Assembly (NCBI RefSeq): GCF_007750855.1 | Contig: NZ_CP036291.1 | Location: 4,650,001 to 4,714,000 of the forward strand | Direction of reading: 5' to 3' | DNA: 64,000 bases | Origin: Pirellulimonas nuda | Lineage (GTDB): Bacteria > Planctomycetota > Planctomycetia > Pirellulales > Lacipirellulaceae | Shown: positions 1,445 through 24,335 of the stretch, one piece after another | Numbering within the stretch: the first letter of the stretch is position 1 | Layout: every line of letters starts with the position of its first letter | Made by a program: the position numbers and the translations under genes | The notes under the pieces: generated by a model | What the model was told of the DNA's origin: nothing | The model's input: only the letters and a program-made list of their open reading frames with translations | Database searches by the model: none

Positions 1445-1558
1445 GGCGGTTGGGTTGGCGTGCGGGCGCCCGATGGATCGGCCGCGACTGGGGCTAGCGG
1501 GTTCCGGCGGGCACGCCCGGTCACGCGCTCCGAGCCGCCGCGATCGGGCCGCGCCCCG

Positions 1559-4054: not shown

Positions 4055-4266
4055 ACGCCAAAGACCTGACAGAAATGAAGAAGACATGGAAGAAAAGTCC
4101 CACGGACTTATTGACAACTCCGATGGGTTGAGTCGATTCTACCTGCGTGGTTGACGGAAAGCGATGCATCGGCGGAGCCGCTTGACTCCCTGAGTCCAAT
4201 CAACCGCTTGGTTTGGCCGATAGCTGCCGGCAATGCGGCCTAGCAACTCCTACTGGCGGAAGCTCC

Positions 4267-5214: not shown

Positions 5215-5318
5215 GCCGAGCGACCCAGGCTTCGCAGTCGCACCGCGCAGAAGCTCTTGCTCAGCATCCTACTCCTGTCTCGCTCGGCTTATCGAATGCG
5301 GTCTCGCGCTGCTAGGGT

Positions 5319-8159: not shown

Positions 8160-8981
8160 GCCCACCTCCTCACGAAAAGTCTTGTTGCCGCCGGCCCTGA
8201 TTGTAGCGCGCAACGTCACCGAGCCAAACCGATCGGCGCCCCGCAGCAAGCCCCCTCGCTGCTCGGGTTCCTGACGTTCGAGTTTTGTCCTTTTGTCCCC
8301 CTCCCACGGCGGGAGAAAATCGGACAAAACCCCGCCGCCGCCACAAAACCAGCGAGATTCACGCGTTTCGGCCCTCGCGCCGGCGGCCGGTTGGACGCCA
8401 GAGGGTCGTATTGGCCCGTTCGGGTGGACAGAAGACCCCATCGATCGGACACCTCCTGGACAAAAAGCACGCAAGACACTTCCGCCGCAACCAAAGCGCG
8501 TACCCCGAGCCATCGGCCGACAGCGACTCACGCCCCGATTTTCTGCGATGGGGTGGCTATTTGCGAGCGAGAACTTGGGCGATTGCTAAGAGGACAAAAC
8601 AGGCCGCCGTCACGCTGGTTGCCGGTTGATCCGCCGGAAGAACGTTCCTCAAGTTCGCACTTCCGGCGATCCAGCCGCGGCGCCCCGGTATTGGCACTCG
8701 CCGACTCGGACCAATCTTGCAAGTCGCGGCCATCTGGTTTATTGGCCCAGTGCTTTTCGGCAATGAGTCTCCCCCAAAGGCCACGCAAGCGCAGCATAGG
8801 GCTTTTCGCGCGCGCAACCGTCGGCGGGCGCTGGCGCGCCGGCGCCCTGAAGCGTTCGTAATTCCGCACTACTCCGACAGCTAGTCCAACTGACGATCAG
8901 TTCGGCTCGAATCGCGGCTCTCGGGATCCGATCCGCGGAACGTCAGGTGATGCCAGAAACTCGAAGAACCTTGCTAAGTGC
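8160..8981. other. 822-base non-coding stretch with repeated GGACAAAA words
   Basis: I see no gene I can support here. The small open frames have no recognisable domain or ribosome binding site. The stretch holds five copies of the 8-mer GGACAAAA or its complement TTTTGTCC, at 8283-8290, 8291-8298, 8322-8329, 8458-8465 and 8592-8599. The strong ribosome binding site of the kelch gene lies at its left end. The right end leads into the mechanosensitive-channel remnant. Confidence 0.6.
8283..8599. promoter_or_regulatory. Cluster of five GGACAAAA/TTTTGTCC octamers, possible operator array
   Basis: Two copies are tandem on the complementary strand (8283-8298). One inverted copy lies 23 bases further on (8322-8329), and single copies lie at 8458-8465 and 8592-8599. 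The array is upstream of the minus-strand kelch/dockerin gene, whose start is at 8159. In a GC-rich genome one such 8-mer on either strand in 300 bases would be rare. The regulator and function are unknown, and the binding-site reading is inference. Confidence 0.4.
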
Positions 8982-9776
8982 ATGCGAAAGCTACGAATTG
9001 TTTGGCTGAGCCTCATTGTTGCGTCCGCGCTGCCGGTCGGGACGGCGGCGGGACAAGATGCCGGGGCGACGACGGTCGAAGCAGAAGGCTCGCCAACGAA
9101 CGTTGTACCCCTCGGGGCCGAATCCGCACCAACGGCTCCGCAACCAATTCGACCGGCCGAGATCACGTCTCAGGCGACGGTGGTTTCGACTAGGCTAGAC
9201 GTGATCGAGAGTGAGCTCCGCCCGAATCCGGAGATCGCCTGAATCGCTATGGATTTCTTCGATGACGGCCAGGCGATGGCCGAACTGCGCGGTGACTTGA
9301 CCGCGCTCGACGCCGACACCGTGACGGCTCTGCGTCTGGAAGATCAAGGGCGCGAGTGGCGACTGATCGCCGAGAAATTCGGCCGATGGGAGCACCTGAT
9401 CGTCAAAGAAGTCAAGAACTGGACACTCTCGGGAACCACCGCCCGCGTCGAGATCTTGGTGGGAACGGCCTATGACAGCAATCCTCGTGAGGTGCTGGAG
9501 ATCCTGCTCCGAACGGCCCGGGAACACGAATTTGTCCTCGAAGAGCCTGAGCCATTCGCGATGATGTTCGGCTTTGGCGAATCGGCTCTCAACTTTCGAA
9601 TGTTTTGCCACACCCATATGGACAAACGCGGGATCGTAACCAGCGATCTACACATCTCCATCCTGGAAGCATTGGGCGAAGCCGGAATTGAGATACCGTT
9701 TCCACAGCGGGACTTGCGTCTGTCATCGATTGACAAGTCTGGCTTCGGAATCGACAGGACCGCCGGCGCCAACTAG
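8982..9776 (+). pseudogene. MscS/KefA-type mechanosensitive channel remnant (stop codon plus internal deletion)
   Basis: The frame starts at ATG 8982 with a signal peptide (LRIVWLSLIVASALPVGTAAG). It is interrupted by an in-frame TGA at 9240-9242 and resumes in the same frame to 9776. Residues before and just after the stop (STRLDVIESELRPNPEIA, stop, then MAELRGDLTALDADTV) resemble the periplasmic coiled-coil region of large KefA-type channels. From about 9410 the sequence jumps to the MscS cytoplasmic domain: EVKNWTLSG, VEILVGTAYDSNPREV, and the C-terminal IPFPQRDL. All pore and membrane helices are missing. The whole frame is about 265 codons, against roughly 800-1100 for a full channel. 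It is best read as a decayed gene with a large internal deletion and one nonsense codon. Confidence 0.75.
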
Positions 9777-9958
9777 GGCGCCTTCAAGTCCTCTTGCGGC
9801 TGATCCGCCTGCCTAGGGTCACTCCGCTTGACACTGCCGGGCGAGTCAGCCGAGGCCAGTCAAAAGCGCCACCCGCCGTACATCAGCGGAGAAGGTCCGT
9901 GACAGAGTACTATGCGGTCACAGGCGGGTGATCCCGCAGACGCTCCCTGCCTTGCTAC

Positions 9959-11521
9959 TCAGGTTTGATAGCCGATGTTGCCGCTTAGCTTGGCGTTTGC
10001 CTTGTTGCGGATCACCCCTTCCTTGCCTAGATGACGGTTGTCTTTGACAACGTTCCCATTCGCGGGCGACCCCTGAATCAGGATACCGTTGCTCTGGGTC
10101 GTGTTGTCCGCCACGATCACGCCCTCACACGGCTGGGCGCCGCTGTTGCGATCGGACACCACATAGATGTCCGCGATATCGCCCGGCGTAGACACTCCGT
10201 TGCCTTGGATCAACAGACCGTCGATGGCGCCGCATTTGTAGATCGACAAGTAACTGTTGACCTTGTTGTTGGTCAGTCGGCTCTCGCGGACGTCGCTGTT
10301 GCAGTGGTCTTCGTGCATCAACCCTTCACCGTCGTTGATGTAGTAGGTGTGGTCGGCGCACCAATTCCTATGAACGCGACAGTCATTGCCATCGACGATC
10401 CAGCCCCAGCCTCGCATCTCGATGGCGCGGTTATCATTCGTTGACGACCCGGACGTCGCGTCCTCCCCTGTTGCCGTGGGCCGCCAGACGTCCTTCTTTA
10501 TGCGGGTCACGTTGTTCGCGCACAGAGTACCGTCCCCAGCAAACCCGATGCAAACGCGACCTGTATTGAAGACGTAGTTATCACGGATCACAATCCCCCT
10601 GCGGAATCCGTAAGGATGCGACTCGGGCGTGCCGTCGTCGCCGCTCCCACCCGCCCCGCCGACGCAATAGTGACCGACATACAGCCCGGGACGATTGTCG
10701 TAGTCGAAGACGACGTCAAAACGATCCGCACCGCCACGATTCGGCTTTAGCAGGAAATCCTTCATGGTAAAGTTGTCGTCGCCATTTTCCGGCAGGCGGT
10801 TGTTCGCTACAAGTAGGTTCTCAGAACCCTTCACGTCTATGGCCGCATGATGCCGAGAGGTGAATCGCTGCCACGCATGCTGCGTGACCCTCCCACTCGG
10901 GATGCGCGGATCAGCCACGGCACAATTCCTCAGCACGCATCCAAAGACAAGACGATTCCCCCCACACCGATGATCTTCCGCCTCCTCGAAGTGGATGTGT
11001 CCGCGGTTGATGTCGATGTTGACGACGCCGCAGTTCGCCGCAGTGGCTGGCGTTTCCAGGTAGATGCCCTTGAAGGCAGAGTCGATCGGGTTCCCTTCCC
11101 CCGTGAAGGACGGCCGGTACTGCGGAAACTCAAGCCGTGTCTCCGGACGGTAGGCCTCGTCGTGAGCGTTGGTTGTCTCGCGTGGCGTGGCGCCACGCAA
11201 CACAACCCCATCCTTAAGGTGGATATGGTTCTCAAAGTGGTAATCACCTGCCGGAAAGTAGATCACTCCACCGCCGGCCTGCGCCACCCGACTTTGAGCT
11301 TCCACAAGCCGCTTGTCCCAATACTTACCGCCCCCCTCCATGCGGGTTACATCAAGTACGCTGCCCCACCTAATCTGCTCGGTCCACGCCAGCCCTAGGC
11401 GTGATGTTGGATTGTTGCTTAGCGACTGAGCCGCAAGCAGCCATTCAGGCAAGAGCAGCGTTGCCGCCGCAGAAGCAGACAACGAAACGAATTCTCGTCG
11501 AGAACATCCCCACTGACGCAT
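9959..11521 (-). CDS. Tat-exported right-handed parallel beta-helix (pectate-lyase-like) protein
   Basis: This 520-residue protein begins with a twin-arginine signal (SRREFVSLSASAAATLLLP), so it should be exported folded by Tat. The body shows the pectin-lyase superfold. It starts with a strand region typical of the fold (GGGVIYFPAGDYHFENHIHLKDGVVLRG), followed by many Asn/Gly-rich helical turns such as NNRLPENGDDNFTMKD, VIRDNYVFNTGRVCIGFAG and IVADNTTQSNGILIQG. Catalytic residues of a specific lyase or hydrolase family cannot be picked out reliably, so the enzyme class is left open. It is transcribed away from the large operon on its right. A polysaccharide-related role fits the neighbouring hydrolases, but this is inference. 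Confidence 0.75.
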   Translation of the reverse strand: MRQWGCSRREFVSLSASAAATLLLPEWLLAAQSLSNNPTSRLGLAWTEQIRWGSVLDVTRMEGGGKYWDKRLVEAQSRVAQAGGGVIYFPAGDYHFENHIHLKDGVVLRGATPRETTNAHDEAYRPETRLEFPQYRPSFTGEGNPIDSAFKGIYLETPATAANCGVVNIDINRGHIHFEEAEDHRCGGNRLVFGCVLRNCAVADPRIPSGRVTQHAWQRFTSRHHAAIDVKGSENLLVANNRLPENGDDNFTMKDFLLKPNRGGADRFDVVFDYDNRPGLYVGHYCVGGAGGSGDDGTPESHPYGFRRGIVIRDNYVFNTGRVCIGFAGDGTLCANNVTRIKKDVWRPTATGEDATSGSSTNDNRAIEMRGWGWIVDGNDCRVHRNWCADHTYYINDGEGLMHEDHCNSDVRESRLTNNKVNSYLSIYKCGAIDGLLIQGNGVSTPGDIADIYVVSDRNSGAQPCEGVIVADNTTQSNGILIQGSPANGNVVKDNRHLGKEGVIRNKANAKLSGNIGYQT

Positions 11522-11811
11522 GGCGCTTGGTTCCTGTGCGTGGACGCGATCTGTGCTCGAGTACGAGGGCCGGAGGGAAACGGAGACAGGAGCATTTTAC
11601 ACCTTCCTTTGCCTCCCGGGAGCGCGTGGAGTGGGCCTCAGGCCGAGTTACGTCACGGCTTGCTCGACCGACGACTTGGAGCCCTAGGGCGAGCCGCGGC
11701 GGGTCGCATCGTGCTCGGCGTTGCTGGCTGGTTGGTGGACATACGGCTTCCGTCTACGTCAGCAACTGGACCTGTCCCCGATTCGCCCAAAACAAGCAGT
11801 GCACGCAGGCC

Positions 11812-14800
11812 TCAAGGCACACGGAGCAGTCGCTTGCCGAGCAGCATCACCCCCAGGTAGACGACCAGGTAGGCCCCCAGCCAGCCGAAGTCCCAGGCTG
11901 GGCCTCCGACGTACGCCAGCGGCGTCCAGAACTTGCGCTGGGTGAGCGGCCGGGGGTGGACGACGCTGAGCGATCGGACCGGGCCCCCCTCGCCGTGGCT
12001 GACCTGGGTGGGGGGTGGTGGGTGGGTGTCGCCGAACACTAGCGGGATGTCGATCGCTGCCGAGGGTTCTGCGGTGCTCAGCCGCGCCACGTGCCGCCCG
12101 GCGGCGTCGGCGGGCACGCGCAGGCGCCAACTGATTGTCTGCGGCGGAACGCCGTTGCGGAGGAAGGCGTTGAGCGAGCCCACTAGGGCCTCGCGTGCGT
12201 GATCGCCGGCGGCTTGCACCTCCCACGGCAGGCCGCTCAGCTCGCTCGCCTGCCACTGGCGGCGGAGGTCTTCTAGCTCGCCCCGGATCGCCGGCAGCGT
12301 GCGCTCGGCGGGGACGCCCGTCTCTAGCGCAAGCGCCTCGGGAACCTCCAGCGTCACGGGGGCGACAAAGTCGCCGTCGATCTCGGCCACGATGCTCACG
12401 CCGCGTCCCGGGTCGGGGTTCCACACCGCCGGGTCGACCCGTTCGGGGAACCACAAGAAGACCAGCATCATCGGGCCGAGCACCCAGGCCAGCGGCGCCA
12501 TCGAGGCCCGCAGCACGCGGCCGCTGACCGGCTTCACCGCGGCCAGCATCGCCGCACGGCGCTGGCTGTCCCGCGGCAGCTTGGCCGCCATCTGGCGCAG
12601 CTTGGCGGCGCGGCGCTTCGCCTCGAAGAGCCTGGCGTTGTCCGTGAAGCGTCGCTGAGCGATCAGCAGGAATAGTGAGAAGGCGCCGCCGACCAGCGCC
12701 ACCGCGCCGACCATGCCGATGCTCCGCACCAGCGGCCAGAGCACAAGATCGATCAGGCGGAATGAAGGGTCTTTGATCCAGGCCGCGGGGAGCAGGTAGA
12801 ACCCAGCGAGGAACAGGCCCCACAGCAGCGCGACCAACAGCGCCCGCTGGTTGGCGTTGGTTTCGCGCGAGCAGACGCGCGGCGGAAGCAGCGCCCGGTC
12901 GATCTCGGCAGAGTCTGCGTCGGGTTCTGCGTTGGGGGTCGCCCCGTCGCCGGCCGCGGCGCGGCAGACGCGGCCCTGGTTGGCGTCGATGCTGATCGTC
13001 TCGCCGTCCGCCAGCAGCTCGGTCGCGGAGTCGAGCACCACGGCGGGCAGGCCGAGCTCGCGGGCGACGATGGCCCCGTGCGACAGCGCGCCCCCGCGTT
13101 CGAGCACCAGCCCCGCGGCGTTTGCGAACAGCGGCGTCCAGGACGGGTCGGTGCTGGGGCAGACCAGGATGTAGCCGGCGCCGAGGTCCGGCGCGTTCTC
13201 CGGCGTGAGGACCACGCGGACCGGGCCGGTGGCGCTGCCGCAGGAGACCGGGTGGGCGGGCCACTGCTGCGTGTCGGGGGAGACCTGCCTGTACCCCAGC
13301 CGGGCGAGGTCGTCTCGCTCGATCACCCGCGGGGTGTACAGGCGCTTGGCGGCCTGACGCTCGGCGCGGCGTTTGGCGATACGGTCTTGCGGCAGGTAGC
13401 CGCCGCGGAGCGCGTCGCCGATCTCCGCGACGCTGAGGTAGAAGACGTCGTCGCCGATGCCCAGCCGGCGGCCGCACTCCAGCGCGGTGTCGCGCAGCAC
13501 GGCGAAGGCGCGCATCAAGTGGTACTTGCCGTCCTCGCGGAAGCGGACGTAGCGTTGCAGCAGGCGGGTGTGGGCTTCGAGCTGCGCGGCGTCGTCGGGC
13601 TTGAGCAGGCGCTTCAACCGCGCCAGCTCGGCCCCCGCCTCTGCGACGCGCGCCTGGTGCTTGGCCGCGGGGTCCGGGCTGTCGCGCAGTTGCTCGGCCA
13701 GCCGCTGCACGTCGCCCGGTCGCTCCCGCCAGCGCGGCGTCGCCAGGTCGAACTCTCCCGGCGCGCGGTGCCCGTGTTCGGCCAGCCAGCCCTCGAGCGG
13801 GCGCGTGCCGAGCGCCGTCTCGCGCAGCGCCGCGTTGGCCAGCGAGGTCTGGTCGGGCAGCGGGCTGACGCTCAGTGTGTGCACCAGCTCGTCGGGGTCC
13901 TCGTCCCAGAAGTTGTCCTCGATAAAGCCGTGCAGCCGGGCGACCGCCAGCGCCTCGATCATGCTCGGCAGGAATGCGTCGGCGCCGAACTCTTGCATCA
14001 CCTTGGCTTCGCGTTCTTCCCACAACGCGATCAACCCCTCGGCGTCGAGGCCGCGCAGGTCGCGGGGGGCTTCTTGCCGCAGCCAAGCGTCGACCGCCGG
14101 CACAAAGACTTCATCGAAGCAGCGGTCGAGCGTCTCGGCCTCTTGCAGCAGCGCGGCCGCCACCTCCCCGCCCAGCCGGCCGGCCCGCGCCTGGGCGCGG
14201 GCCCCGGATCGGGGGAGGGTCGGGGGCTGCTGGGCGGCGTCTGGATTCTCTCGCAGCAACGCCGGGTCGTACGCGAACGGGTAGTCGGCAAAGAACATCT
14301 CGGGCATGCGGGCGCAGTCCATGTAGATGCCCCCGCCGATCCGCTCAAGGAAGCCGTCTTTCTCCACCACGTCCGAGGGGGCGAAGCCGACGCGGCGGTA
14401 CATCCGCCCGAAGCCCCCCTCGCCCGACATGAACCGCTGGACCACGTCCCAACTCAGCGGCGTCGGGTTGACGAGCGTTTCATCTAGGTTGTGGCGCACC
14501 CAGGGGCCGCGTCCGGCGTCGAGCTCGCCACCGAGGCGTTCTACCGTGCGGGCCAGCAGCGTCTGGTAGGCCGCCGCGTCGTCGAGCGTGGTGATGGCGC
14601 GGGACTGCAGCAGGTGGACACGGCCGGCGCCGTCGATGGCCCACTCGATGTCCTGCGGGTGATCGAAGTGCCGGGCGGCCTTGCGGCCCAGTTCCCACAG
14701 CGTGCGGATCGAGGCGAAGCCGAGGCAGGCGCGGCGCCGCAGCGCGTCGGGGGTCTCCTCGGGACCGGCGGCGCCCGAGAGCAAACGCACCCGTTTGTCG

Positions 14801-15414
14801 GCGACGGTGTACTGGAGCACTTCACACGGCTCGGCGGCGACGCGGACGATGTCTGGCTGCACCTCGCCCGAGACGACCGACTCGCCCAGCCCCCACGAGG
14901 CCTCGATGAGCATCTCGCTCGGCGAGCCGGTGCGTGGGTTGGTGGTGAACAGCACGCCGGCCGCCTCGGCGGAAACGAGCTTCTGAACCACCACGGCCAT
15001 GGCCACGCCGGCCGGGTCGATCCCCTGCTCGTGCAGGTAGGCGGCCACGCGCTCGCTGCCGATGCTGGCCCAGCAGCGAACCACCGCGTCGACCACGGCG
15101 TCGGCGGTCGCGAGGTTCAAGAACGTGTCGTATTGACCGGCCATCGAGGCGCCGGCCAGGTCTTCGGCGGTCGCGGAAGAACGGGCCGCCACCAGCGGGC
15201 AGTCGAGCCGGGCGTAGGCGTCGCGGAGCTGGCCGAGGACCTCGTCGCGCCGAGCGTCGCGAGCCAGGTACGCGGCGGTCGTCACCACGAAGCCGTCGGG
15301 CACCGGCAGGCCGGCACGGATCATCGCGGCCAGGTTGACCGCCTTGCCGCCGACGAGCGCCGCGTCGGTCGCCTCGGCGAGTGGGATTACCAACGGCGAC
15401 TCGACCCGCGTCAT
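11812..15414 (-). CDS. PEP-synthase/rifampin-phosphotransferase-like enzyme with membrane C-terminus
   Basis: This 1200-residue protein starts at the ATG at 15414, which overlaps the preceding stop as ATGA, a sign of translational coupling. Residues 1 to about 310 form the PEP-synthase-type ATP-grasp domain (VGGKAVNLAAMIRAGLPVPDG, AARSSATAEDLAGASMAGQYDT, VLFTTNPRTG, IEWAIDG). A long helical linker follows, then the swivelling phosphohistidine domain with catalytic His779 in GGALSHGAIVAREL. No PEP/pyruvate-binding barrel is present. The order ATP-grasp, linker, His domain is that of rifampin phosphotransferases. Unusually, about 400 further residues follow with at least three hydrophobic segments (LLVALLWGLFLAGFYLLPAAW, VGAVALVGGAFSLFLLIAQ, WLGAYLVVYLGVMLLG). 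The substrate is unknown. It probably phosphorylates a small molecule or acceptor at the membrane (inference). Confidence 0.85.
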   Translation of the reverse strand: MTRVESPLVIPLAEATDAALVGGKAVNLAAMIRAGLPVPDGFVVTTAAYLARDARRDEVLGQLRDAYARLDCPLVAARSSATAEDLAGASMAGQYDTFLNLATADAVVDAVVRCWASIGSERVAAYLHEQGIDPAGVAMAVVVQKLVSAEAAGVLFTTNPRTGSPSEMLIEASWGLGESVVSGEVQPDIVRVAAEPCEVLQYTVADKRVRLLSGAAGPEETPDALRRRACLGFASIRTLWELGRKAARHFDHPQDIEWAIDGAGRVHLLQSRAITTLDDAAAYQTLLARTVERLGGELDAGRGPWVRHNLDETLVNPTPLSWDVVQRFMSGEGGFGRMYRRVGFAPSDVVEKDGFLERIGGGIYMDCARMPEMFFADYPFAYDPALLRENPDAAQQPPTLPRSGARAQARAGRLGGEVAAALLQEAETLDRCFDEVFVPAVDAWLRQEAPRDLRGLDAEGLIALWEEREAKVMQEFGADAFLPSMIEALAVARLHGFIEDNFWDEDPDELVHTLSVSPLPDQTSLANAALRETALGTRPLEGWLAEHGHRAPGEFDLATPRWRERPGDVQRLAEQLRDSPDPAAKHQARVAEAGAELARLKRLLKPDDAAQLEAHTRLLQRYVRFREDGKYHLMRAFAVLRDTALECGRRLGIGDDVFYLSVAEIGDALRGGYLPQDRIAKRRAERQAAKRLYTPRVIERDDLARLGYRQVSPDTQQWPAHPVSCGSATGPVRVVLTPENAPDLGAGYILVCPSTDPSWTPLFANAAGLVLERGGALSHGAIVARELGLPAVVLDSATELLADGETISIDANQGRVCRAAAGDGATPNAEPDADSAEIDRALLPPRVCSRETNANQRALLVALLWGLFLAGFYLLPAAWIKDPSFRLIDLVLWPLVRSIGMVGAVALVGGAFSLFLLIAQRRFTDNARLFEAKRRAAKLRQMAAKLPRDSQRRAAMLAAVKPVSGRVLRASMAPLAWVLGPMMLVFLWFPERVDPAVWNPDPGRGVSIVAEIDGDFVAPVTLEVPEALALETGVPAERTLPAIRGELEDLRRQWQASELSGLPWEVQAAGDHAREALVGSLNAFLRNGVPPQTISWRLRVPADAAGRHVARLSTAEPSAAIDIPLVFGDTHPPPPTQVSHGEGGPVRSLSVVHPRPLTQRKFWTPLAYVGGPAWDFGWLGAYLVVYLGVMLLGKRLLRVP

Positions 15415-17117
15415 GGCGAGGCGCCCCCCGCGTAGCCACGTAGCCCGCCGGTCTCGCTGCCGACAAACAGCCGCCCGTGGGCCACCAGCGGCGAGCTGAT
15501 GCTCAGCCCCTGGGCGCCCGGGTTTTCTTCCGAGTTGATGTAGAGCTTCTCGAGCTGCGTGCCGGAGGCCAGATCGAACCGCGCCAGGTAGCCGTCCTGG
15601 CTGACCGCGAACACCTGGCTGTCGGTCACCGCCGGGGCGGCGAGCACCGGCGCCACGCCGCTGATCCGCGAGGCCCACTGCCGTGAGCCGTCTTTCGGGT
15701 CGAGGGCCACGACCTCGCCGTTGGCCACGCCACACACCAGCCGGTCCCCCGCCGCCACGGCCCCGAGCACCGCGTCGGGCAGATCTGCCTGCCACGCTAC
15801 CTTTCCGGTCGCGGCGTCGAGCGCCATGACCACGCCGGCCGGCTTGGGGTCGCGGTACACGAAGTCGCCGTTCCCCCCTCCGGCGATCACCAGGTCGCCC
15901 AGCAGGGTGATGGCGCCGGTGATCGGGTAAGGGGTCGGGGTCCGCCACAGTTGGCGCTCGCCCGCCGCTGCGGCGGGGTCGGTTTTTAGCGCGACGATCG
16001 CGTTGCCGTTGAACCCGCTGCCGATGTACAGCACGCCGTCGCGGACCGCCGGCGAGCTCTCCGGGTCGGCGACGTCGTGCCGCCACAGCTCGCGTCCGTC
16101 GTCGAGGCTCGCGGCGAGCACGAAGCCGGGGTGGCTGAGCGCCTTGTGTGTCGCGGGGTCCTCGATCGCCCCGGCGCCGATATAGACCGTGTCGCCATCA
16201 ATCACGGGCGAGCTCTCGAGGTGCAGCGGCGTTGGCAGCGTCCAGCGAACGCGGCCCGACTGGGTGTCGATGCAGATCAGCGTGCACTCGCTGTCGGGGT
16301 GGAGGCCCTGGCCGATCACCAGGGAGCGGCCGTCTGCGCTGATCGCGGGCGAGCTGAAGAATCCCTTGAACTCTTCGTCCCCGGCCTTGTCCACCGACCA
16401 GAGCTGCTTGCCGGTGGCGGCGTCGAGGCAGAACACCGCGCCGTAGGTATCGGGGGGGTCCAGCAGGCACGAAGCCCCGTAGATGCGGTCGCCGTGCACG
16501 GCCGGGCTGGAGAGGATCATTGCTTCGGTGTCTTCGCTTTCGACGCCCGACTCGTCGATCCACCTCGGGTAGTGCTGCCAGAGCTTCTTCAGCCCGACCG
16601 AGGGCGCCGCGCCGATCACGCCCAGGCGTTGTGGGCCGACGCGGAAGATGAAGGGCGCGGCGCGCGCGGCGGTCGCCTCGGGCGCCACTGGCCGGGGCGG
16701 GTCGGCAGCGGCCGGCTGCGCACCGGCAGGCCCAGTGGCGGTCCGGTCCCGCGCTTCAATGCGGGCCAGGGCCACGGCGGTCCAGTCGACGTACACGGCG
16801 CCCCCGCTGCTTGCCCCTGTGGCGGGAGCGGCCGCGCCTCGGCGGCTGGCGGCTACGTCGGCCGACCCGCCGTGGCTAGGCCAGTAGGCGATGGCGAGCC
16901 CCGCCAGTCCCGCCAGGCAGAACACGGCGACCGGGACCCACGGCTTCTCTCGGCACACACGCAGCAGCTCGCGCGGCTTGAAGAGCAACGCAACAAATGT
17001 GGTAACCGCGGCGAGGATGACGGGGAACAGCGCGGCGCCGGCGTTGACCACAATCGGGACGACTGCGATAGGAACGCCGAGATGGCCGACCCCCTCCAAG
17101 AGGCTAGAATTCATCAT
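15411..17117 (-). CDS. Membrane-anchored PQQ-type beta-propeller protein
   Basis: This is about 568 residues with two N-terminal membrane segments (VPIVVNAGAALFPVILAAVTTFVALL and VPVAVFCLAGLAGLAIAYW). A Pro/Ala-rich linker follows, then a PQQ-type propeller of repeated blades (YGAVFCLDAATGKQLW, LICIDTQSGRVRW, VALDPKDGSRQW, ARFDLASGTQLEKLY), as in BamB-like proteins. The ATG at 17117 was chosen because GAGGT lies nine bases upstream. A GTG at 17132 is an alternative. The gene overlaps its upstream neighbour's end by 14 bases and its own stop overlaps the next start (ATGA). It is probably a scaffold or sensor in the same complex as its neighbours (inference). No dehydrogenase catalytic residues were recognised. 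Confidence 0.85.
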   Translation of the reverse strand: MMNSSLLEGVGHLGVPIAVVPIVVNAGAALFPVILAAVTTFVALLFKPRELLRVCREKPWVPVAVFCLAGLAGLAIAYWPSHGGSADVAASRRGAAAPATGASSGGAVYVDWTAVALARIEARDRTATGPAGAQPAAADPPRPVAPEATAARAAPFIFRVGPQRLGVIGAAPSVGLKKLWQHYPRWIDESGVESEDTEAMILSSPAVHGDRIYGASCLLDPPDTYGAVFCLDAATGKQLWSVDKAGDEEFKGFFSSPAISADGRSLVIGQGLHPDSECTLICIDTQSGRVRWTLPTPLHLESSPVIDGDTVYIGAGAIEDPATHKALSHPGFVLAASLDDGRELWRHDVADPESSPAVRDGVLYIGSGFNGNAIVALKTDPAAAAGERQLWRTPTPYPITGAITLLGDLVIAGGGNGDFVYRDPKPAGVVMALDAATGKVAWQADLPDAVLGAVAAGDRLVCGVANGEVVALDPKDGSRQWASRISGVAPVLAAPAVTDSQVFAVSQDGYLARFDLASGTQLEKLYINSEENPGAQGLSISSPLVAHGRLFVGSETGGLRGYAGGASP

Positions 17118-19146
17118 CGGGACCAACCTCACCGCGATCGACGACCACGACGCTATGGGGTTTTGAATTAAGGTCGACTTCGGCGACGCGCTCCAGGCCG
17201 TCGGCGTAGCGCACCGTCAGCTTGCAGTTACCCGGGCCGGGCTGTCGCACCGCTAGTTCTGCGCGGCTGGGACCGCACGACCCCGCCGAGACGTTGCTAG
17301 TCAGGTCGCGCCGCGCCAGCAGGCGGCCCGAGGCGTCGTGCAGCAGCACGCGGGCGTTGACGATTCCTTTCGACCCAAGCACATGCACGGTAAGCAGCTT
17401 CGTCCCCTCAATGGCCGCGATCTCGGGGACCGGGTGGTCTACCGGCGCCCGCGCGGCCAGCGTGTCGTTGACGATCATCGTCAGGTGACCGAGGGGATTG
17501 CCCACCACGAGGTCGGGCGCGCCGTCGTTGTTCAGGTCGCCGGCGGCGCAGGCCAGGCCCCCCAGCTCGCCGGACGGGCCGTCGAACATGTGCTCGTAGT
17601 GCTTGTGGGTGGCGCCCAGCATGAAGGAGCCGTAGCCGCGGTTCACGATGAAGCGGTTGTGGCCGTTCTCTGCGCTGCTCACGGTGAAGAAATCGACGTA
17701 CCCGTCGCAGTTGAGGTCCTCGGCGACCGTCGCCAGGTGCGCCTGCGACCCCTCGCTGATCTCGTTCCCCCAACGCGTCACGTCGACGGGCACGCCGTCC
17801 TGGTTCGCGACGACGATCCAGCCGTCTTCGAGCGGCACGACCAGGTCCATCCCCCCGGACGAGAAGAGGGGGAGGAAGGCGCCGGCGCCGGTGACGCCGG
17901 CCTTGCCGGTGGCGCTGGAGGTGAACTTGAAGTCGATCTCGTGCGGCACGGGCTCGAACACGCCGCCGGAGTTCTGCACCAGCAGGTACCCGCCGCCGGC
18001 GGCGTAGAACAGGTCCGTGCGCAGGTCGTCGTTCCAATGGCCCGGCGTGACGAACCCGTCGCCCCCGGCGCCGCACTCGGGCCGGTCGAGCCCCATCTCT
18101 GCGGTGGCGTCCTTGAACGCCCCGCCCGCCTCGCCGGGGTTCATGTAGGCGCGGAGCCCGCCCCCGGCGACGCTCGCCACGATGTCTGGGTAGCCGTCGC
18201 CGTTGAGCTCAACGAAAGCGGACGTCTTGAGCGACGGCGCCTGGGGGAAGCCGTCGGGCAGCAGCGAGTCCTGCCGGACGAACGAGAGGCGACTGCCCTT
18301 GAACTGGCCGGTGTACAGCACGTCCCCCAGCAGCAGGTCGGTGAGCGTGTCGCCGTTGATGTCCGCGGCCGCACAGCCGGCCGCGGGCACGCCCGCCAGA
18401 CCGAGCAGCTCTGTGGCGTCGGCGAACTGGCCGTCGTCGCCCTGCAGGAAGGCGCTCACCGAGCCGGCGCACGCCAAGATGTCCAGGTCGCCGTCGCCGT
18501 CGAGGTCGTACGTCGCGACCCCCGTGACCGGCGCGTCGAACTGCTTCATGAGTTGATCGGTGCGGAAGCGGGCGTAGCCTTTGCGGGGGAAGAAGTCGCG
18601 CCCCGCGGCGATGTCCTCCACCAGCGCGGCGAGCTGCCCGCTGGAGCCGTTCCACGTGCCGGCCAGCGTGCTTACCGCGGCGCCGTCCAGGCCGACCGTC
18701 GCCTCACCGCTCTTGTCTAGCGACCAAGCGCCGGGCGAGCTCATCTGTCCGAGGTAGAAGCCGTTGGCGTACAGCATCAGGTCCTTGGGGCCACGACGCC
18801 GACCGGCAAAGGCCACCGCCTTGTCGCCGGCGACGATGTCGCCTTCGTGCATCGCGTCGGCCGCGGCGTCCTTCATCGGGCCGGTGAACGCGAGCGTCAC
18901 CTCCTCTCCTTCGACCAGCCCCCCCTTGAGCGAGCGGCCGATGCGGCACAGGGCCGTGCCGGCGTCGGGGTTGACCTCGAGGATGTCGAGGATGCAAACC
19001 GTGGTGTACCGCGTGTGAAAGAGATCGGCGGGTTGCAGCCCGGCGTTGATGACCGCGCCGGCGGGCGGACACGCCAGCAGCGGCGCCAGCGCCGCGACGG
19101 CGAGCAACAGGGGGCGTATCGAGAGGCGGATCATAGGCTTACTCAT
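17104..19146 (-). CDS. Secreted FG-GAP/VCBS-repeat propeller protein
   Basis: This 680-residue exported protein has a signal peptide (LSIRPLLLAVAALAPLLACPPAGA). An N-terminal region of unknown fold follows. From about residue 205 there are repeated calcium-binding FG-GAP/VCBS blades: YDLDGDGDLDILACAGS, DINGDTLTDLLLGD, ELNGDGYPDIVASV, DLNCDGYVDFFTV, DLNNDGAPDLVVGNP. These build an integrin-alpha-like beta-propeller used for binding. An Ig-like C-terminal tail follows (VRYADGLERVAEVDLNSKP). The 3' end overlaps the start of the PQQ-propeller gene, so the two are very likely co-transcribed. An ATG four codons downstream is an equally possible start. Ligand and role are unknown. Confidence 0.85.
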   Translation of the reverse strand: MSKPMIRLSIRPLLLAVAALAPLLACPPAGAVINAGLQPADLFHTRYTTVCILDILEVNPDAGTALCRIGRSLKGGLVEGEEVTLAFTGPMKDAAADAMHEGDIVAGDKAVAFAGRRRGPKDLMLYANGFYLGQMSSPGAWSLDKSGEATVGLDGAAVSTLAGTWNGSSGQLAALVEDIAAGRDFFPRKGYARFRTDQLMKQFDAPVTGVATYDLDGDGDLDILACAGSVSAFLQGDDGQFADATELLGLAGVPAAGCAAADINGDTLTDLLLGDVLYTGQFKGSRLSFVRQDSLLPDGFPQAPSLKTSAFVELNGDGYPDIVASVAGGGLRAYMNPGEAGGAFKDATAEMGLDRPECGAGGDGFVTPGHWNDDLRTDLFYAAGGGYLLVQNSGGVFEPVPHEIDFKFTSSATGKAGVTGAGAFLPLFSSGGMDLVVPLEDGWIVVANQDGVPVDVTRWGNEISEGSQAHLATVAEDLNCDGYVDFFTVSSAENGHNRFIVNRGYGSFMLGATHKHYEHMFDGPSGELGGLACAAGDLNNDGAPDLVVGNPLGHLTMIVNDTLAARAPVDHPVPEIAAIEGTKLLTVHVLGSKGIVNARVLLHDASGRLLARRDLTSNVSAGSCGPSRAELAVRQPGPGNCKLTVRYADGLERVAEVDLNSKPHSVVVVDRGEVGPDDEF

Positions 19147-19220
19147 AGAGAACTAGCGGCGACGGCGGCGCCGTCTGTGGCCGGCAGCGCCGGCGGGCTT
19201 GAAAACGGGGCCCCTGCTGC

Positions 19221-20828
19221 CTACTGGATCACGTAGGTCGTTGAGTGCGTGGGGCTGAATCCGACGCCGGTCTTGTAGGCCTTCATCGTCAGCTTGGTCG
19301 TCTTGCTGAGGCTGATCGGGCCGTTGTAGATGGGCGAGTCCTTGGTGGGCTCCGTGCCGTCGGTGGTGTACCGGATGCGGGCGCCGGGCACGCGGTTCTC
19401 GATCGTCACCTCGATCGGGTGGTCGAACACCACCGCCACCGGCGTCTTGATGGCGTTCTTGCCCCGTCCCACCAGCTTCACCTCGGTGCTCTCCGGCAGC
19501 GTCTGCAGGTGGAACGGGTCGGACTGCTCTAGGTAGCCCTGCATCGAGGCCATGGCGGTCTCCGTGAGCCCCCACTCCGACTTCTGGTCGCCGCGGCTGT
19601 GGTAGTACGCGTTGGGGTCGACCGCGAGTTCAGAGAACAGCGCGTCCTCCGGCCCCGCGTTGTGCCGGCCGAACGTCACGTTCCGCCACGCCTTGCGGGC
19701 GTCTGGGTCGGCCATGCTGATCCCGCCGTCGCAGACGTAGTCGAAATGCACGCCGTCGAGCTGCACGTCGCCCGCTAGCTGCATCGCGATGCCGTGCTTG
19801 TCGCGGGCCGGCAGGTCGGGCTCGCCGACCAGCCCCCCGGTCCCGTCCCGAAAACCCTCGACCGCGGCGGTGGCCTGCACCACCAGCCGCGCCTTGGCGG
19901 GGTCCGAGGAGTAGACGCGCATCATCGACCCAACGGCCATGTACAGGCCGGTGTGGCCCGGCTTCTGGTTGTCGCCGTAGCCCAGCAACAGGAAGGCGTC
20001 GCCCGTGAGCGGACGCTCGGGCGAACCGGCCTGGATGACGCCGTTGCGGTAGACGTTGACGTTGTAGACGTCCTTGTTGTTCTCCGGGGCAAACGGGGCG
20101 ACCCGCCCCCCGGTCTGGATCTCTAGGATGCCGCCGTCGTAGATCTCTAGAGCGCCCTTGTTGGTCACCCCGCTGAAGCGGAAGTCGCCGCTGACGATCA
20201 TCTTGCCGTGCTGCAGCATCACCTCGTCGCTGACCCCCAGGTTGCCCAAGAACTCGACCGACGCGGTGCCGTACTTGCACACCTGGAACTTGTGCGAGAT
20301 CTGCGCCCGGCTCTGCTGTGCTTCTGGGAGCCGCCGCGACGGGTGCTGGAACGCCTGCCCGTTTTCGGGCGTGGGGAACTCGCTCCCTTGGACGCGGAAG
20401 TAGGTGTGCTTGCCACCCACCACCGAGACAAAGCGGACCATCCCCTCGGGCAGGACGTCGCAGTTGCCCCAGATCTCGACCTCGTTGCGGTGCCCGCCCG
20501 TGAGCCGCGCGTTCTTGTGAATCGTTACGTGCCGGACCTGATTGTTGCGGCCCCCGGCTACGGAGTACCGCGCCCCGGCGGCGGGCAGGATGATGTCTGT
20601 CTCGCTGTCGGGCGGGTCCTTGGCGGCCCGCCCGTCCTGCGTCCAGTTGGCCGCGTCGCCGATTTCGCCGCTTTGGCCGGGGTGCGCCCAGGTCAGCACG
20701 CGGCCCGCGGGCCACGATTGGGTTTCATAGGCCGGGGCGGCCGCGAACACGCCGGGCGCACAGGCGTACGCCAACGCGAACAACAGCAGCGACTTGCGGA
20801 TTATCACGATGGACCAACCGTGCTTCAT
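19221..20828 (-). CDS. Secreted repeat protein with CHB_HEX-like C-terminal domain
   Basis: This 535-residue protein starts at the ATG at 20828, which gives a signal peptide (SLLLFALAYACAPGVFAAAP). The central part is rich in short beta-strand motifs with Gly turns and resembles G8/beta-helix architectures (TWAHPGQSGEIGDAANWTQDG, VRHVTIHKNARLTGGHRNEVEIWG, GALEIYDGGILEIQTGG). The last 65 residues match the chitobiase/hexosaminidase C-terminal-type Ig-like fold (VPGARIRYTTDGTEPTKDSP, ending HSTTYVIQ). It lies 74 bases upstream of the FG-GAP gene in the same direction and after the sigma/FecR pair. Its function is unknown. A carbohydrate-binding or surface role is inferred from the fold only. 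Confidence 0.72.
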   Translation of the reverse strand: MKHGWSIVIIRKSLLLFALAYACAPGVFAAAPAYETQSWPAGRVLTWAHPGQSGEIGDAANWTQDGRAAKDPPDSETDIILPAAGARYSVAGGRNNQVRHVTIHKNARLTGGHRNEVEIWGNCDVLPEGMVRFVSVVGGKHTYFRVQGSEFPTPENGQAFQHPSRRLPEAQQSRAQISHKFQVCKYGTASVEFLGNLGVSDEVMLQHGKMIVSGDFRFSGVTNKGALEIYDGGILEIQTGGRVAPFAPENNKDVYNVNVYRNGVIQAGSPERPLTGDAFLLLGYGDNQKPGHTGLYMAVGSMMRVYSSDPAKARLVVQATAAVEGFRDGTGGLVGEPDLPARDKHGIAMQLAGDVQLDGVHFDYVCDGGISMADPDARKAWRNVTFGRHNAGPEDALFSELAVDPNAYYHSRGDQKSEWGLTETAMASMQGYLEQSDPFHLQTLPESTEVKLVGRGKNAIKTPVAVVFDHPIEVTIENRVPGARIRYTTDGTEPTKDSPIYNGPISLSKTTKLTMKAYKTGVGFSPTHSTTYVIQ

Positions 20829-21079
20829 GGGAACATCAGGGTGAAGAGGACAGAGTGGGACAAGCAGAAGAGTGGGCCCGGTTCGGGCCAGCGGGCGTTC
20901 GAGCATACGTCATCGTCATTCGGCCAACAACCTCGTCGCATCTATCGGATCCGCGGCGCCTGGAGATGGGTTCGCGCCACGCGTTGTGCTGAACAATCGG
21001 GGGTGATAACCCGGCACGTCGGCAGGCGGCGGACAACGCCCCACGGTGCGCGGCCAGCGCCGGCCGAGGCGCCGCGGGC

Positions 21080-22432
21080 CTACGGCGCTATGGTCAGGAT
21101 CAACTCCGGGGGTGACTTGCTGTCTCGCGAGCCGAACCAGATGTCGTCCTCGCCCGACTTGTCCAGCGTCATGATCAGGGTCAGCGGGCCGGGGCCGCGG
21201 ACGGCGTCGGTCACGTCCACCGACACCACCTGCCCACCGCCGACCACGCCGCGGTGCTGCGCGACTTCCCTGACCTTCTCCGGCGCGGCGTCTCCAAACA
21301 GCGATGTTTCTCGCCAGTCGCTGTGGTCGCCGACAAAAAACCGCAGCGTGCCGCTCCCCGAGTCGACGATCTGCGTCAGACGCAGCTTGGCGGAGCGGAC
21401 GTCTGAGACGTCCGGGATGTCGAACATGATGTACGCCACGCGACGCCCCCCCTCGACCTTCAGGGCGAACGTCTGCGGGGCCGGCGCGCCGTGATCGATC
21501 GTCACGTCGTGGATCGGCAGCAGCTTCCGCACCTCGAGCGCCGGTGACGATAGGTCTTGCACCGCCAGGTCGTCGGTAGTGGCCATCTGCTGCGAGCCGA
21601 CGCTCACCTCGGCCTGATCGCTGCTCCGCGTGAGCTTGACGCTCCCTTCGTACACCTTCACCTCGGTTTGGCCCGCCGCTGCGTCGGAGTGGTCTGTCGC
21701 GACCAGCGAGAACACGGTCCCCATCACCGCAACGGTCGACTGCCCGGTGAGCACCTCGAACGGGGGCATCCCGTCGCGACGCGGCGCGATCTCGAAGAAC
21801 GCCTCGCCCCGCAGCAGCCCCAGCCGCGGCGAATCGGAGTCGAGGCTGACCAGCGACCCCGGCTCCATCGATACGATCGAGCCATCCGACAATCGCAGCA
21901 TCGCCTTGGTTTGTGCGTCGCAGGTCACCCGGTCCCCCACCCGCAGCGGAAAGCCGGAGTCCGCCCGGTAGTGCTGCTCTCCCCGCTGCACCCCGAGCTC
22001 GCTGCCGCCGGAAACGCTCATGCAGACCCCCATCTGGGGCGCGTCGCGGGGGCCGCCGCGATAGATCGAGTAGCCGAGGGTGAGGGTCCCGATAAGCAGC
22101 GTGGCCGCGAGCGCCAGTGTCCGCGGGCGCCAATAGGAACGCCCGAGGGCGTCGGGCGCCCGCGTGCCCGCGAGCGAACGCAGCTCGACCTGCTCGGTCA
22201 GGCCCTCGCGCAGCAGGATGTCTAACCGCGCCGCCTGCTGGAACCGCTGCCGAGCGGCGTCGGAAGCGCTCACCGCCGCGTGGAGGTCCGCCACCAGGGG
22301 CTCGGACCTGTCGCCGTCTAGGTAGCGTTGCAGCAGCTCGTCGAACCGCTCTTCGAACCGCTCGTCGGCGCTTGGACCGCCGTTGCCTGGCCCTTCGTTG
22401 TTTGGCCCTTCGTTATTCGAGTTGGCGTTCAT
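21080..22432 (-). CDS. FecR-type anti-sigma/sensor protein fused to a DNRLRE-like domain
   Basis: This 450-residue inner-membrane regulator starts at the ATG at 22432, which shares one base with the sigma factor's TGA stop (TGATG). The cytoplasmic N-terminus (FDELLQRYLDGDRSEPLVADLHAAV) is the planctomycete FecR-type anti-sigma part. A single membrane helix follows (LALAATLLIGTLTLGYSIY), then a FecR domain (RADSGFPLRVGDRVTCDAQTKAMLRLSDGS, FEVLTGQSTVAVMGTVFSLV). The C-terminal 150 residues look like a DNRLRE domain: VAYIMFDIPDVSDVRSAKLRL, LRFFVGDHSDW, VSVDVTDAVRGPGPLTLIM. This domain family is usually found on extracellular carbohydrate-related proteins, so the regulator may sense a surface ligand (inference). 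Confidence 0.85.
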   Translation of the reverse strand: MNANSNNEGPNNEGPGNGGPSADERFEERFDELLQRYLDGDRSEPLVADLHAAVSASDAARQRFQQAARLDILLREGLTEQVELRSLAGTRAPDALGRSYWRPRTLALAATLLIGTLTLGYSIYRGGPRDAPQMGVCMSVSGGSELGVQRGEQHYRADSGFPLRVGDRVTCDAQTKAMLRLSDGSIVSMEPGSLVSLDSDSPRLGLLRGEAFFEIAPRRDGMPPFEVLTGQSTVAVMGTVFSLVATDHSDAAAGQTEVKVYEGSVKLTRSSDQAEVSVGSQQMATTDDLAVQDLSSPALEVRKLLPIHDVTIDHGAPAPQTFALKVEGGRRVAYIMFDIPDVSDVRSAKLRLTQIVDSGSGTLRFFVGDHSDWRETSLFGDAAPEKVREVAQHRGVVGGGQVVSVDVTDAVRGPGPLTLIMTLDKSGEDDIWFGSRDSKSPPELILTIAP

Positions 22433-23004
22433 CACGCGGTCGCCTCCGGGATTGCGTGGGCGACCTTCGACTCGATGCACTCGCGCAACTTCGAGCGGAG
22501 CCGCGCCAGCGTGGTGCGGAGCGAACCGACGCGGACAGCAGCCGACTCCGCCAAGGCCTGCCCCTTGAGGTTGTGGCCGTACCGCAGCAGCAGCAGTTTT
22601 TGCATCCGATCGGGCAGCCTTTGCACACAGCCCCGCAGGGCGACCCGTTCCCGCCGCCAGACGTCTTCTTCCCCTTCGGCGACGATCATGGCCAGCTCGG
22701 CGATCAGTTCGCTCAGCCCGCTCGAGGGCATCTTGGCCTGCCGCCGCCAGTGCTCGAGGACGACGTTCCGGGCGACCCCGCAGGCCCAGGGGACAAAGCT
22801 CCGGGTCGGATCGTACCGCTGCTCGCTCTTGAGGATCTCGAGGACCGCCTCCTGGAAGAGGTCTTCCGCGGCCTCAAAGTCTCCCACCATCGACACGATC
22901 ACGGCCAGGATCCGAGACCGGTTCTCGCTGATGGTCAGCAGCGCCGCGATGGAGCGATCATCCATCTTTTCCGCCGGGGGAGCAGGGAAGCCGGTTCTAG
23001 CCAT
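22432..23004 (-). CDS. ECF-type RNA polymerase sigma factor
   Basis: This 190-residue sigma-70 family protein contains region 2 (ILAVIVSMVGDFEAAEDLFQEAVLEIL, then FVPWACGVARNVVLEHWRR) and region 4 (VQRLPDRMQKLLLLRYGHNLKGQALAESAAVRVGSLRTTLARLRSKLRECI). It belongs to the planctomycete/verrucomicrobial ECF groups that are paired with FecR-like partners. The ATG at 23004 gives a normal N-terminus. ATG 22968 is an alternative start. Its stop overlaps the FecR start, so the two are translated together. It probably directs transcription of the genes downstream on this strand, and possibly other loci (inference). Confidence 0.92.
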   Translation of the reverse strand: MARTGFPAPPAEKMDDRSIAALLTISENRSRILAVIVSMVGDFEAAEDLFQEAVLEILKSEQRYDPTRSFVPWACGVARNVVLEHWRRQAKMPSSGLSELIAELAMIVAEGEEDVWRRERVALRGCVQRLPDRMQKLLLLRYGHNLKGQALAESAAVRVGSLRTTLARLRSKLRECIESKVAHAIPEATA

Positions 23005-23216
23005 GATTGTAATTGGCCGAGGGTCGTAAAACGTGCACACCCCAGCGCCCATTTTGTGCGTCGCACAGGCAGAATAGGCTAATCTACCGCCGGATCGGGC
23101 CCGCTGCACGCCGCCGGCGGAACCGCGCAGCAGCCAAGGGGGCGGGGGGCGCCGCGCCCCCTCAACCCGCCACCGCCAACTTTGCAGCCCCTGTGACCTC
23201 CCCCCAAAGACGTGCG

Positions 23217-24335
23217 ATGCGCCAGCTGTGTTACCCTGCTTGGATTGCCCTCTCGCTGGCCGTAGGGCCGGCGCCCCTTGCCGCAGAGTCGCGTATGCCC
23301 GGCGATAGGCTCACCGATGAACAAGTCGCTCGGTTCGCGCAGCTCGCGCTGGACGGCATCCCGCGCGAGTTCCCCAACAAGCCCTCGAACGTGATGACCG
23401 GCCCCGAGTCGGTGCTCGCCCCGCGGCAGATGCACCCGGTCTTCTTCGGGAGCTTTGATTGGCACTCCTCGGTGCACGGCCACTGGATGCTGGTGCGGCT
23501 AGCAAAAGAGTACCCCGATTCGCCCGTTGTGGCGCAGGCCCGCGCGTTGCTCGACCGGCAGTTTACCGAGGAGGGGCTGGCGGCCGAGGCGGCCTACTTC
23601 GCCGACCCCGCCAACAAGGGCTTCGAACGGATGTACGGCTGGGCCTGGACGCTGCGCCTCGCGGCAGAGCTGCGCACCTGGGACGACCCCGACGCACGGC
23701 GCTGGGCCGCGCACCTGCTGCCGCTGGAACAGCAGATCGTCGCGCTCACCAAAGACTACCTGCCGCGGCTGACCTACCCCATCCGCACCGGCGTCCACCC
23801 CGACACCGCGTTTGCGCTGGGGCAAACCTTGGACTACGCCCGCGCGGTCGACGACGCGGCGCTCGAGGCCCAAGTGGTCGACTACTGCCGCCAGAAGTAC
23901 CTTGCCGACCGCGACTACCCCGCCCGCTACGAGCCGTCCGGGGAAGACTTCTTTTCCGCGGGTTGGAACGAGGCAGACCTGATGCGACGCGTCCTTCCCG
24001 CCGACGAGTTCGCGGCCTGGCTCACGCGTTTCTTCCCGCACCTCACGGCCGGCGCCCCCCCGGAGCAAAGCGCCCTGGCGCCTGCTGTGGTGTCGGACGT
24101 GACCGACCCGCGGATCGTCCACCTCGCCGGGCTGAACCTGTCGCGCGGCTGGACGCAGAACGGCGTGCTGGCTGCCCTGCCGGCAGACGACCCACGCCGG
24201 CCGCTGCTGCAGAAATCGGTAGCGGCGCACACGCGGGCCGGGCTCGACTACGTCTTCAGCGGCCACTACGAGGGGGAGCACTGGCTCGCCACCTTCGCGG
24301 TCTACCTGCTCACCGAGACAGGGGCGCCGCGGTGA
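23217..24335 (+). CDS. DUF2891 family protein, exported
   Basis: This 372-residue protein starts at the ATG at 23217 with a signal peptide (LCYPAWIALSLAVGPAPLAAES). The body is the DUF2891 fold, an all-helical domain probably related to alpha/alpha toroids. It is recognised from FFGSFDWHSSVHGHWMLVRL, FERMYGWAWTLRLAAEL, SGEDFFSAGWNEADLMRRVL, LAGLNLSRGW and the final YEGEHWLATFAVYLLT. No catalytic activity is established for the family as far as I know. Its stop overlaps the GTG start of the Nramp-like gene by four bases (GTGA), so both are in one operon. The 212-base gap to the divergent sigma-factor gene should carry both promoters. Confidence 0.9.
   Translation: MRQLCYPAWIALSLAVGPAPLAAESRMPGDRLTDEQVARFAQLALDGIPREFPNKPSNVMTGPESVLAPRQMHPVFFGSFDWHSSVHGHWMLVRLAKEYPDSPVVAQARALLDRQFTEEGLAAEAAYFADPANKGFERMYGWAWTLRLAAELRTWDDPDARRWAAHLLPLEQQIVALTKDYLPRLTYPIRTGVHPDTAFALGQTLDYARAVDDAALEAQVVDYCRQKYLADRDYPARYEPSGEDFFSAGWNEADLMRRVLPADEFAAWLTRFFPHLTAGAPPEQSALAPAVVSDVTDPRIVHLAGLNLSRGWTQNGVLAALPADDPRRPLLQKSVAAHTRAGLDYVFSGHYEGEHWLATFAVYLLTETGAPR

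Follow-up and report, generated by a model that had tools for sequence, protein, structure and literature searches.

What does a phosphotransferase-like membrane enzyme do at the end of a gene run that opens with a sigma factor? This question is raised by six genes of Pirellulimonas nuda, located in a 64,000-nucleotide stretch of DNA (hereafter the window; its genome is labelled G000). The initial annotation had read them as the genes of a sigma factor, a FecR-type regulator, an exported protein with a CHB_HEX-like tail (CHB protein), an FG-GAP propeller, a membrane PQQ propeller and a kinase-like phosphohistidine enzyme. Inspection of the open reading frames (ORFs) and Pfam and NCBIfam domain searches recovered all six, on the minus strand and in the families named. 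The enzyme had also been called a membrane protein. A membrane domain is indeed present, but its kinship had been left unrecognised. Judging from profile and fold comparisons, the C-terminal third of the enzyme belongs to the Oxa1 superfamily as a domain of the DUF106/EMC3 type, an assignment that does not imply insertase activity, and it is fused to a dikinase of the rifampin phosphotransferase (RPH) type. Our overall reading is that of a membrane-bound dikinase acting, together with the propeller, on a substrate handled across the membrane. We give this reading a probability of about 0.5; within it, the identity of the substrate and the direction of transport are guesses.

The Oxa1 superfamily (YidC, EMC3, GET1, TMCO1 and archaeal DUF106 proteins) is known for protein insertases. 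A bacterial member of the archaeal/EMC3 type, tied both to a phosphotransferase driven by ATP and to a propeller, points to a further recruitment of the superfamily, for substrate chemistry or transport, and the fused and split forms found in two phyla offer a tractable test. Taken singly, the domains are all members of known superfamilies. No description of the dikinase-EMC3/DUF106 combination, fused or linked, was found in the non-subscription literature searched; on that basis we regard the combination as new, with a function that is predicted only.

Domains of the enzyme

The closest solved structures to the dikinase part were those of Listeria rifampin phosphotransferase (5fbs/5hv1, E 8e-119), phosphoenolpyruvate (PEP) synthases ranking behind. 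In the alignment, K24, R78, E257, Q270 and R272 of the enzyme correspond to K22, R117, E297, Q309 and R311 of RPH, and H779, carried by a GGxLSHGA motif, corresponds to H825. These six residues are invariant in the 17 full-length fused members. The middle domain is also RPH-like, as positions 482-816 of profile A1 aligned with RPH residues 480-863, that is, with the second half of the middle domain and the swivel domain. No catalytic residue of an ATP-His dikinase is missing from the enzyme, in agreement with the kinase-like identity first proposed, and dikinase activity is predicted. It resembles RPH and the two-component dikinases HpeHI, CreHI and PpsAB in its ATP-grasp, middle and swivel-His domains, in its catalytic residues and in the absence of the regulatory Thr of PEP synthases, which RPH-type enzymes lack (PMC12167813). 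Unlike these enzymes, which are not described as membrane proteins, it carries a fused Oxa1-type domain of 345 residues and its gene is obligately linked to a propeller gene.

Two more precise identities were considered and rejected. The score against the rifampin phosphotransferase equivalog NF041857 was 353 bits for a cut-off of 999, which makes the enzyme a homologue only and not a rifampin phosphotransferase proper. Against the PEP synthase equivalog TIGR01418 it was 285.6 bits for a cut-off of 739.75, and the residue preceding the catalytic His is Leu instead of the regulatory Thr. Because both scores fall far from their cut-offs, homology does not predict the substrate.

The tail is multi-pass, and plain Pfam searches leave it blank. 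When a profile made from five tails was compared with the PDB, a single membrane protein was matched, the archaeal YidC-like DUF106 protein MJ0480 (5c8j, E 2.3e-7); the next match reached only E 0.09. The Pfam family EMC3_TMCO1 (PF01956) appeared weakly in two fused relatives (E 0.04-0.05; 13.9 and 14.2 bits for a cut-off of 27.1). The predicted layout comprises a linker transmembrane (TM) helix at residues 858-876, TM1 (about 901-919), a charged cytosolic hairpin, TM2 (971-989), an immunoglobulin (Ig)-like extracytoplasmic insert (about 998-1130) and TM3 (1179-1197). In an AlphaFold model of the tail alone (predicted local distance difference test, pLDDT, 77), the predicted helices fit a three-TM core with a charged cytosolic hairpin. 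Via realignment of Foldseek candidates, this model was superposed on Bacillus halodurans YidC (3wo6; Z 6.3, root-mean-square deviation 4.6, 144 residues aligned, model residues 19-341), and most other realigned structures covered only the Ig-like insert (model residues 143-275).

The tail shares with archaeal DUF106 (MJ0480), EMC3 and TMCO1 the succession of TM1, charged cytosolic hairpin, TM2 and TM3 with a C-terminal GW-L-YL pattern. It differs from them by the Ig-like insert between TM2 and TM3, the extra linker helix, the kinase fusion and its bacterial host. With bacterial YidC, the fold may point to a common superfamily, whereas the YidC family of Pfam, 60KD_IMP (PF02096), gave no match to the tail at E up to 10. 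Four TM segments are predicted in all 18 fused proteins and three in all six complete proteins of the split form described below. The additional linker helix may answer a topological need, that of joining a cytosolic enzyme to a membrane domain whose N-terminus lies outside.

Conservation of the propeller-enzyme pair

One scan of GTDB genomes returned four full-length relatives of the enzyme, in Aporhodopirellula (76%; genome G434), in a Pontiellaceae bacterium (53%) and in two Phycisphaerae (45%). By profile search, the fused form was found in 6 of 392 Planctomycetota genomes, counting the window's own (one of the six, G186, holds two copies), and in 8 of 388 genomes of Verrucomicrobiota, the phylum of the Pontiellaceae bacterium. 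Eighteen fused loci were read in these two phyla. At all 17 whose contig reaches the propeller position, the enzyme gene is immediately preceded by a PQQ-type propeller gene, mostly with ATGA or short overlaps. CHB and FG-GAP homologues are located near the module at 10 of the 18 loci, and L057, at a contig end, has FG-GAP alone. Apart from the window, ten loci or fragments show a CHB homologue paired with FG-GAP, distant CHB members being devoid of the tail. Among 42 genomes of the window's own family, no full-length enzyme relative was found, showing that the cluster is sporadic there. RPH-like matches in a plasmid collection were partial only, none reaching 80% of the query. At L059 (G216, positions 1-20000), three CHB-FG-GAP pairs and two LacI-type regulators surround one propeller-enzyme pair.

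The dikinase and the EMC3-like protein are also encoded by separate adjacent genes, at eight Planctomycetota loci, and the propeller gene is directly upstream at the five that could be checked. The split proteins, homologous to the tail, exceed the EMC3_TMCO1 cut-off in G344, G059, G121 and G319. Four genomes among the 392 Planctomycetota pass this cut-off, and in each of them the EMC3-like gene directly follows the dikinase gene; among 14 control genomes, the family was matched only in archaea. In the tree, the two forms are separate, the split ones making up a clade outside that of the fused ones. A further dikinase-EMC3-like fusion, missed by the fused-tail profile, is apparently separate as well (L152 2-2938, G322). 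At L088 (2736-6934, G441), a propeller gene is followed by the gene of an 821-residue enzyme relative in which the middle and EMC3-like parts are kept.

The order CHB, FG-GAP, PQQ propeller, enzyme is present in the window and at L039, L040, L081, L082 and L083. At L083, in the Verrucomicrobiota genome G673, the complete order from sigma factor to enzyme is found again, with overlapping junctions. The recurrence of all six genes at L083, and of the last four at L039, L040, L081 and L082, exceeds chance. The initial annotation had taken the genes for a unit and had named gene order in relatives as its own check; once run, this comparison upheld the unit. The loci with the four-gene order form a single clade of the tree (support 1.0). 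The six-gene form is therefore plausibly ancestral in that clade, the sigma and FecR genes having later been lost or relocated.

In the window, the junctions are as first described. The stop codon of the sigma gene and the FecR ATG overlap by one base (TGATG), the FG-GAP and PQQ genes overlap by 14 nucleotides, and the PQQ and enzyme genes meet at ATGA. Neither a terminator-like nor a sigma-70-like site was found in the 251-nucleotide gap between the FecR and CHB genes. Coordinates are collected in Table 1.

Table 1. Location of the cluster genes, enzyme domains and upstream motif in the window.
Feature	Position	Strand	Basis
ECF sigma factor (Rhodopirellula/Verrucomicrobium type)	22432..22965	(-)	Pfam/NCBIfam; sigma-70 r2/r4
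FecR-type transmembrane sigma regulator, C-terminal CBM96/DNRLRE carbohydrate-binding domain	21080..22432	(-)	Pfam FecR 49.9 bits, CBM96 45.4 bits
CHB protein, exported, CHB_HEX/Fn3-like tail (CHB_HEX_C_1)	19221..20828	(-)	Pfam
FG-GAP propeller protein, exported	17104..19146	(-)	Pfam; conserved CHB neighbour
PQQ/BamB-type propeller, membrane-anchored, N-terminal TM hairpin (two TM segments)	15411..17117	(-)	Pfam PQQ_2 126 bits; TM prediction
RPH-type dikinase fused to EMC3/DUF106-like membrane domain, 1200 residues	11812..15414	(-)	Pfam, profile matches
ATP-grasp (PPDK_N) domain, residues 14-282, K24/R78/E257/Q270/R272	14569..15375	(-)	alignment to LmRPH 5fbs
Swivel phosphohistidine domain, residues 747-814; His779 at 13078-13080	12973..13176	(-)	Pfam PEP-utilizers 77 bits
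Oxa1-superfamily DUF106/EMC3-like domain, residues 855-1200	11812..12852	(-)	profile match, TM pattern, AlphaFold
Promoter-like motif TGTGCACGTTTT-N13-AATT	23012..23039	(-)	upstream of sigma gene

Sigma factor, FecR regulator and upstream motif

The extracytoplasmic function (ECF) sigma factor reaches 122 bits against TIGR02989 (Sig-70_gvs1), whose curated cut-off is 124.55. Its ORF is present as proposed, and the start first given, 23004, probably adds 13 codons too many. The protein would begin at the ATG at 22965, since the homologues of G434 and G673 begin at an equivalent MDxS and since 23004 is only 8 nucleotides from the motif described below. The gene it overlaps encodes the predicted regulator, with a FecR domain and one TM segment. 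Sigma homologues were found in G434 (72%) and G673 (52%), the next paralogues being at 35% or below; no close one was found in four other module-bearing genomes. A FecR homologue adjoins the sigma gene at L083 and L091. In Aporhodopirellula, the sigma-FecR pair is on a different contig from the module, and the pair stands beside the module at 2 of the 18 fused loci. LacI-type regulators are located near the module at L058, L059 and L086 (identified with Pfam at L059 and L086, by close sequence similarity at L058). These regulators and the rarity of the sigma/FecR pair show that the sensor is not part of the general system.

A motif was seen by eye in side-by-side upstream regions and was tested genome-wide. 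In the form TGTGCACGNTT-N14/15-AATW, it precedes the sigma gene in G000, G434 and G673, and the CHB gene in G673. The latter genome contains exactly two matches, before sigma and before CHB. Three matches are found in G000: before the sigma gene, before a DUF5060 gene beside a pectate lyase gene (L153), and at window position 29384. The reversed pattern, used as a control, gave no match in G000 or in G673. An automated search for 5-mer/4-mer pairs returned no pair in more than two of six regions, no better than with shuffled sequences. The DUF5060 homologues of G000 and G434 are 69% identical and both have the motif, with one mismatch in the G434 copy; the G434 gene is directly upstream of CHB-FG-GAP-PQQ-enzyme. 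We infer that the motif is a promoter element of the sigma factor. It supports a putative common control of the sigma gene and the module, in one clade only, and offers a specific hypothesis on the regulon of this sigma factor, one among a large number of planctomycetal ECF factors still uncharacterised.

Two observations on individual copies can be added. The third G000 match (window 29384-29411, plus strand) is in an antisense DHFR-like ORF region, about 310 nucleotides before a DUF1559-type gene, and may be due to chance. At L153 (1518-1572) and L091 (2117-2172), TGTGCACG occurs in two facing copies about 45 nucleotides apart, an arrangement that might correspond to an operator rather than to a promoter alone.

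The pair recalls FecI/FecR surface signalling by its ECF sigma factor, its membrane regulator with a FecR domain, the overlapping genes and the autoregulatory-looking motif. It departs from that system in that the six-gene cluster has no TonB receptor, the FecR protein carries CBM96 and the putative target is a propeller-kinase module. The initial annotation had placed under this sensor a surface-signal-controlled phosphorylation system. Its six-gene order is found in the window and in G673, and in one clade the sigma gene and the module are linked by the promoter-like motif, but the pair is not beside the module at the other 16 loci. Moreover, the cluster contains neither a receiver nor a protein substrate, and the FecR/CBM96 protein is more simply viewed as a regulator of expression. 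Phosphorylation as signalling is thus not supported, and we consider it improbable.

A putative membrane unit and its alternatives

The core of the system would be a three-part membrane unit composed of a PQQ propeller facing the periplasm, a cytosolic RPH-type dikinase and an EMC3/DUF106 domain with a periplasmic Ig-like insert, the last two being one polypeptide in the window's lineage. His779 on the swinging domain would take up a phosphate from ATP and hand it on to a substrate bound in the middle domain. The membrane domain would bring this reaction to the inner membrane face, and the substrate would be delivered from outside, helped by the propeller and by the exported CHB and FG-GAP proteins. 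This proposal builds on the domains, catalytic residues, gene linkage and fused and split forms seen above, and presumes that the parts form a complex with the predicted topology. An Enzyme I-type phosphohistidine swivel domain (2hwg, E 1e-4) and a possible coupling of phosphorylation to transport are reminiscent of the PEP-dependent phosphotransferase system. In contrast with that system, the predicted donor is ATP and not PEP, and no HPr or EII domains were seen in the cluster. The unit might be a new membrane translocator, in which the groove of the EMC3/DUF106 domain and the periplasmic propeller hand a lipid-linked or saccharide substrate to the dikinase for cytosolic phosphorylation, that is, an ATP-driven group translocation. 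We put this forward tentatively, as a possibility with the odds against it.

Several observations weigh against a membrane-bound dikinase working with the propeller. The window tail itself has no EMC3_TMCO1 match, Foldseek searches with the tail model gave nothing below E 0.001, and the AlphaFold model of the full-length enzyme was unusable (pLDDT 55.6). The YidC match supports the Oxa1 fold but, not being strong alone, is not decisive. CHB and FG-GAP are missing beside the module at several loci and are therefore not essential parts. The motif is expected by chance about once per genome (0.8 for 6.6 Mb with uniform bases), so that only its position makes it informative, and the match at window position 29384 has no clear following gene. 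No copy within one mismatch precedes the window CHB gene; sigma control there consequently rests on read-through over the 251-nucleotide gap. Finally, phosphotransfer may be dispensable at L088, since the enzyme relative is devoid of the ATP-grasp and His domains whereas the membrane part is kept.

The same L088 protein bears on another explanation, in which the membrane domain is a mere anchor or oligomerisation platform and the enzyme a tethered small-molecule or lipid kinase, its neighbours being co-regulated but separate. Tethering is a simple account of the fusion and is consistent with the intact RPH-type catalytic core. It accounts poorly for a relative that lost its ATP-grasp and His domains yet kept the membrane part, and for the retention of the membrane domain, the periplasmic insert and the propeller hairpin in both fused and split forms. 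We hold a mere anchor to be rather doubtful.

Members of the Oxa1 superfamily insert proteins into membranes (PMC8675477, PMC8887752). The EMC3-like domain could accordingly serve membrane or exported proteins, for example CHB and FG-GAP, as a true insertase or chaperone that the dikinase and the propeller regulate or power. The BamB-like propeller next door and the several CHB-FG-GAP pairs around the single L059 core are in line with this. However, the CHB and FG-GAP proteins carry N-terminal hydrophobic signal segments of ordinary type, and the genome already encodes a standard YidC elsewhere (G000:C1:4249949). In addition, RPH-type dikinases use small molecules as substrates (PMC12167813), and the module does without CHB and FG-GAP at several loci. 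An insertase is unlikely in our view.

The pairing of a PQQ-like propeller on the lumenal or periplasmic side with an EMC3-type domain is shared with the endoplasmic reticulum membrane complex. A bacterial counterpart of its core by descent, with the propeller as EMC1 and the membrane domain as EMC3, was thus considered. Three of five module propellers do match Pfam Beta-prop_EMC1_N (best E 3.8e-6), but ordinary propellers from the same genome reached scores at least as good (1.8e-8), and EMC1 did not appear in the list of 60 PDB matches. The match being unspecific, EMC1 kinship of the propeller was dropped, and common descent with the complex appears highly improbable.

For the membrane-bound dikinase, a likely role would be in the use of plant- or algal-type polysaccharide, because an ECF sigma factor and a FecR-CBM96 protein would set expression in this clade and because the motif precedes the DUF5060 gene beside a pectate lyase gene. 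At one locus or another, the neighbouring genes encode pectate-lyase-like proteins, a pectic acid lyase, sulfatases or calcineurin-like phosphoesterases. As planctomycetes are rich in pectate-lyase-like, sulfatase and similar genes, the carbohydrate context to which these neighbours point is suggestive only. The CBM96 domain of the FecR protein, a module described as alginate-binding (PMC9971899), points in the same direction and is to be taken in the same way.

Around the cluster in the window, a pectate-lyase-like protein, below the Pfam cut-off, is encoded on the same strand 290 nucleotides downstream of the enzyme gene (9959-11521, minus strand). On the other side, a DUF2891 protein gene (23217-24335, plus strand) is divergent from the sigma gene; after it comes an ORF recognised by eye as that of an NRAMP-like transporter. 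A calcineurin-like phosphoesterase of about 675 residues is located near the module at three distant loci (L042 14770-16809, L086 15610-17637 and L087 3947-5959). At L087, its gene is directly upstream of the propeller gene, and the protein is a possible counterpart to the kinase.

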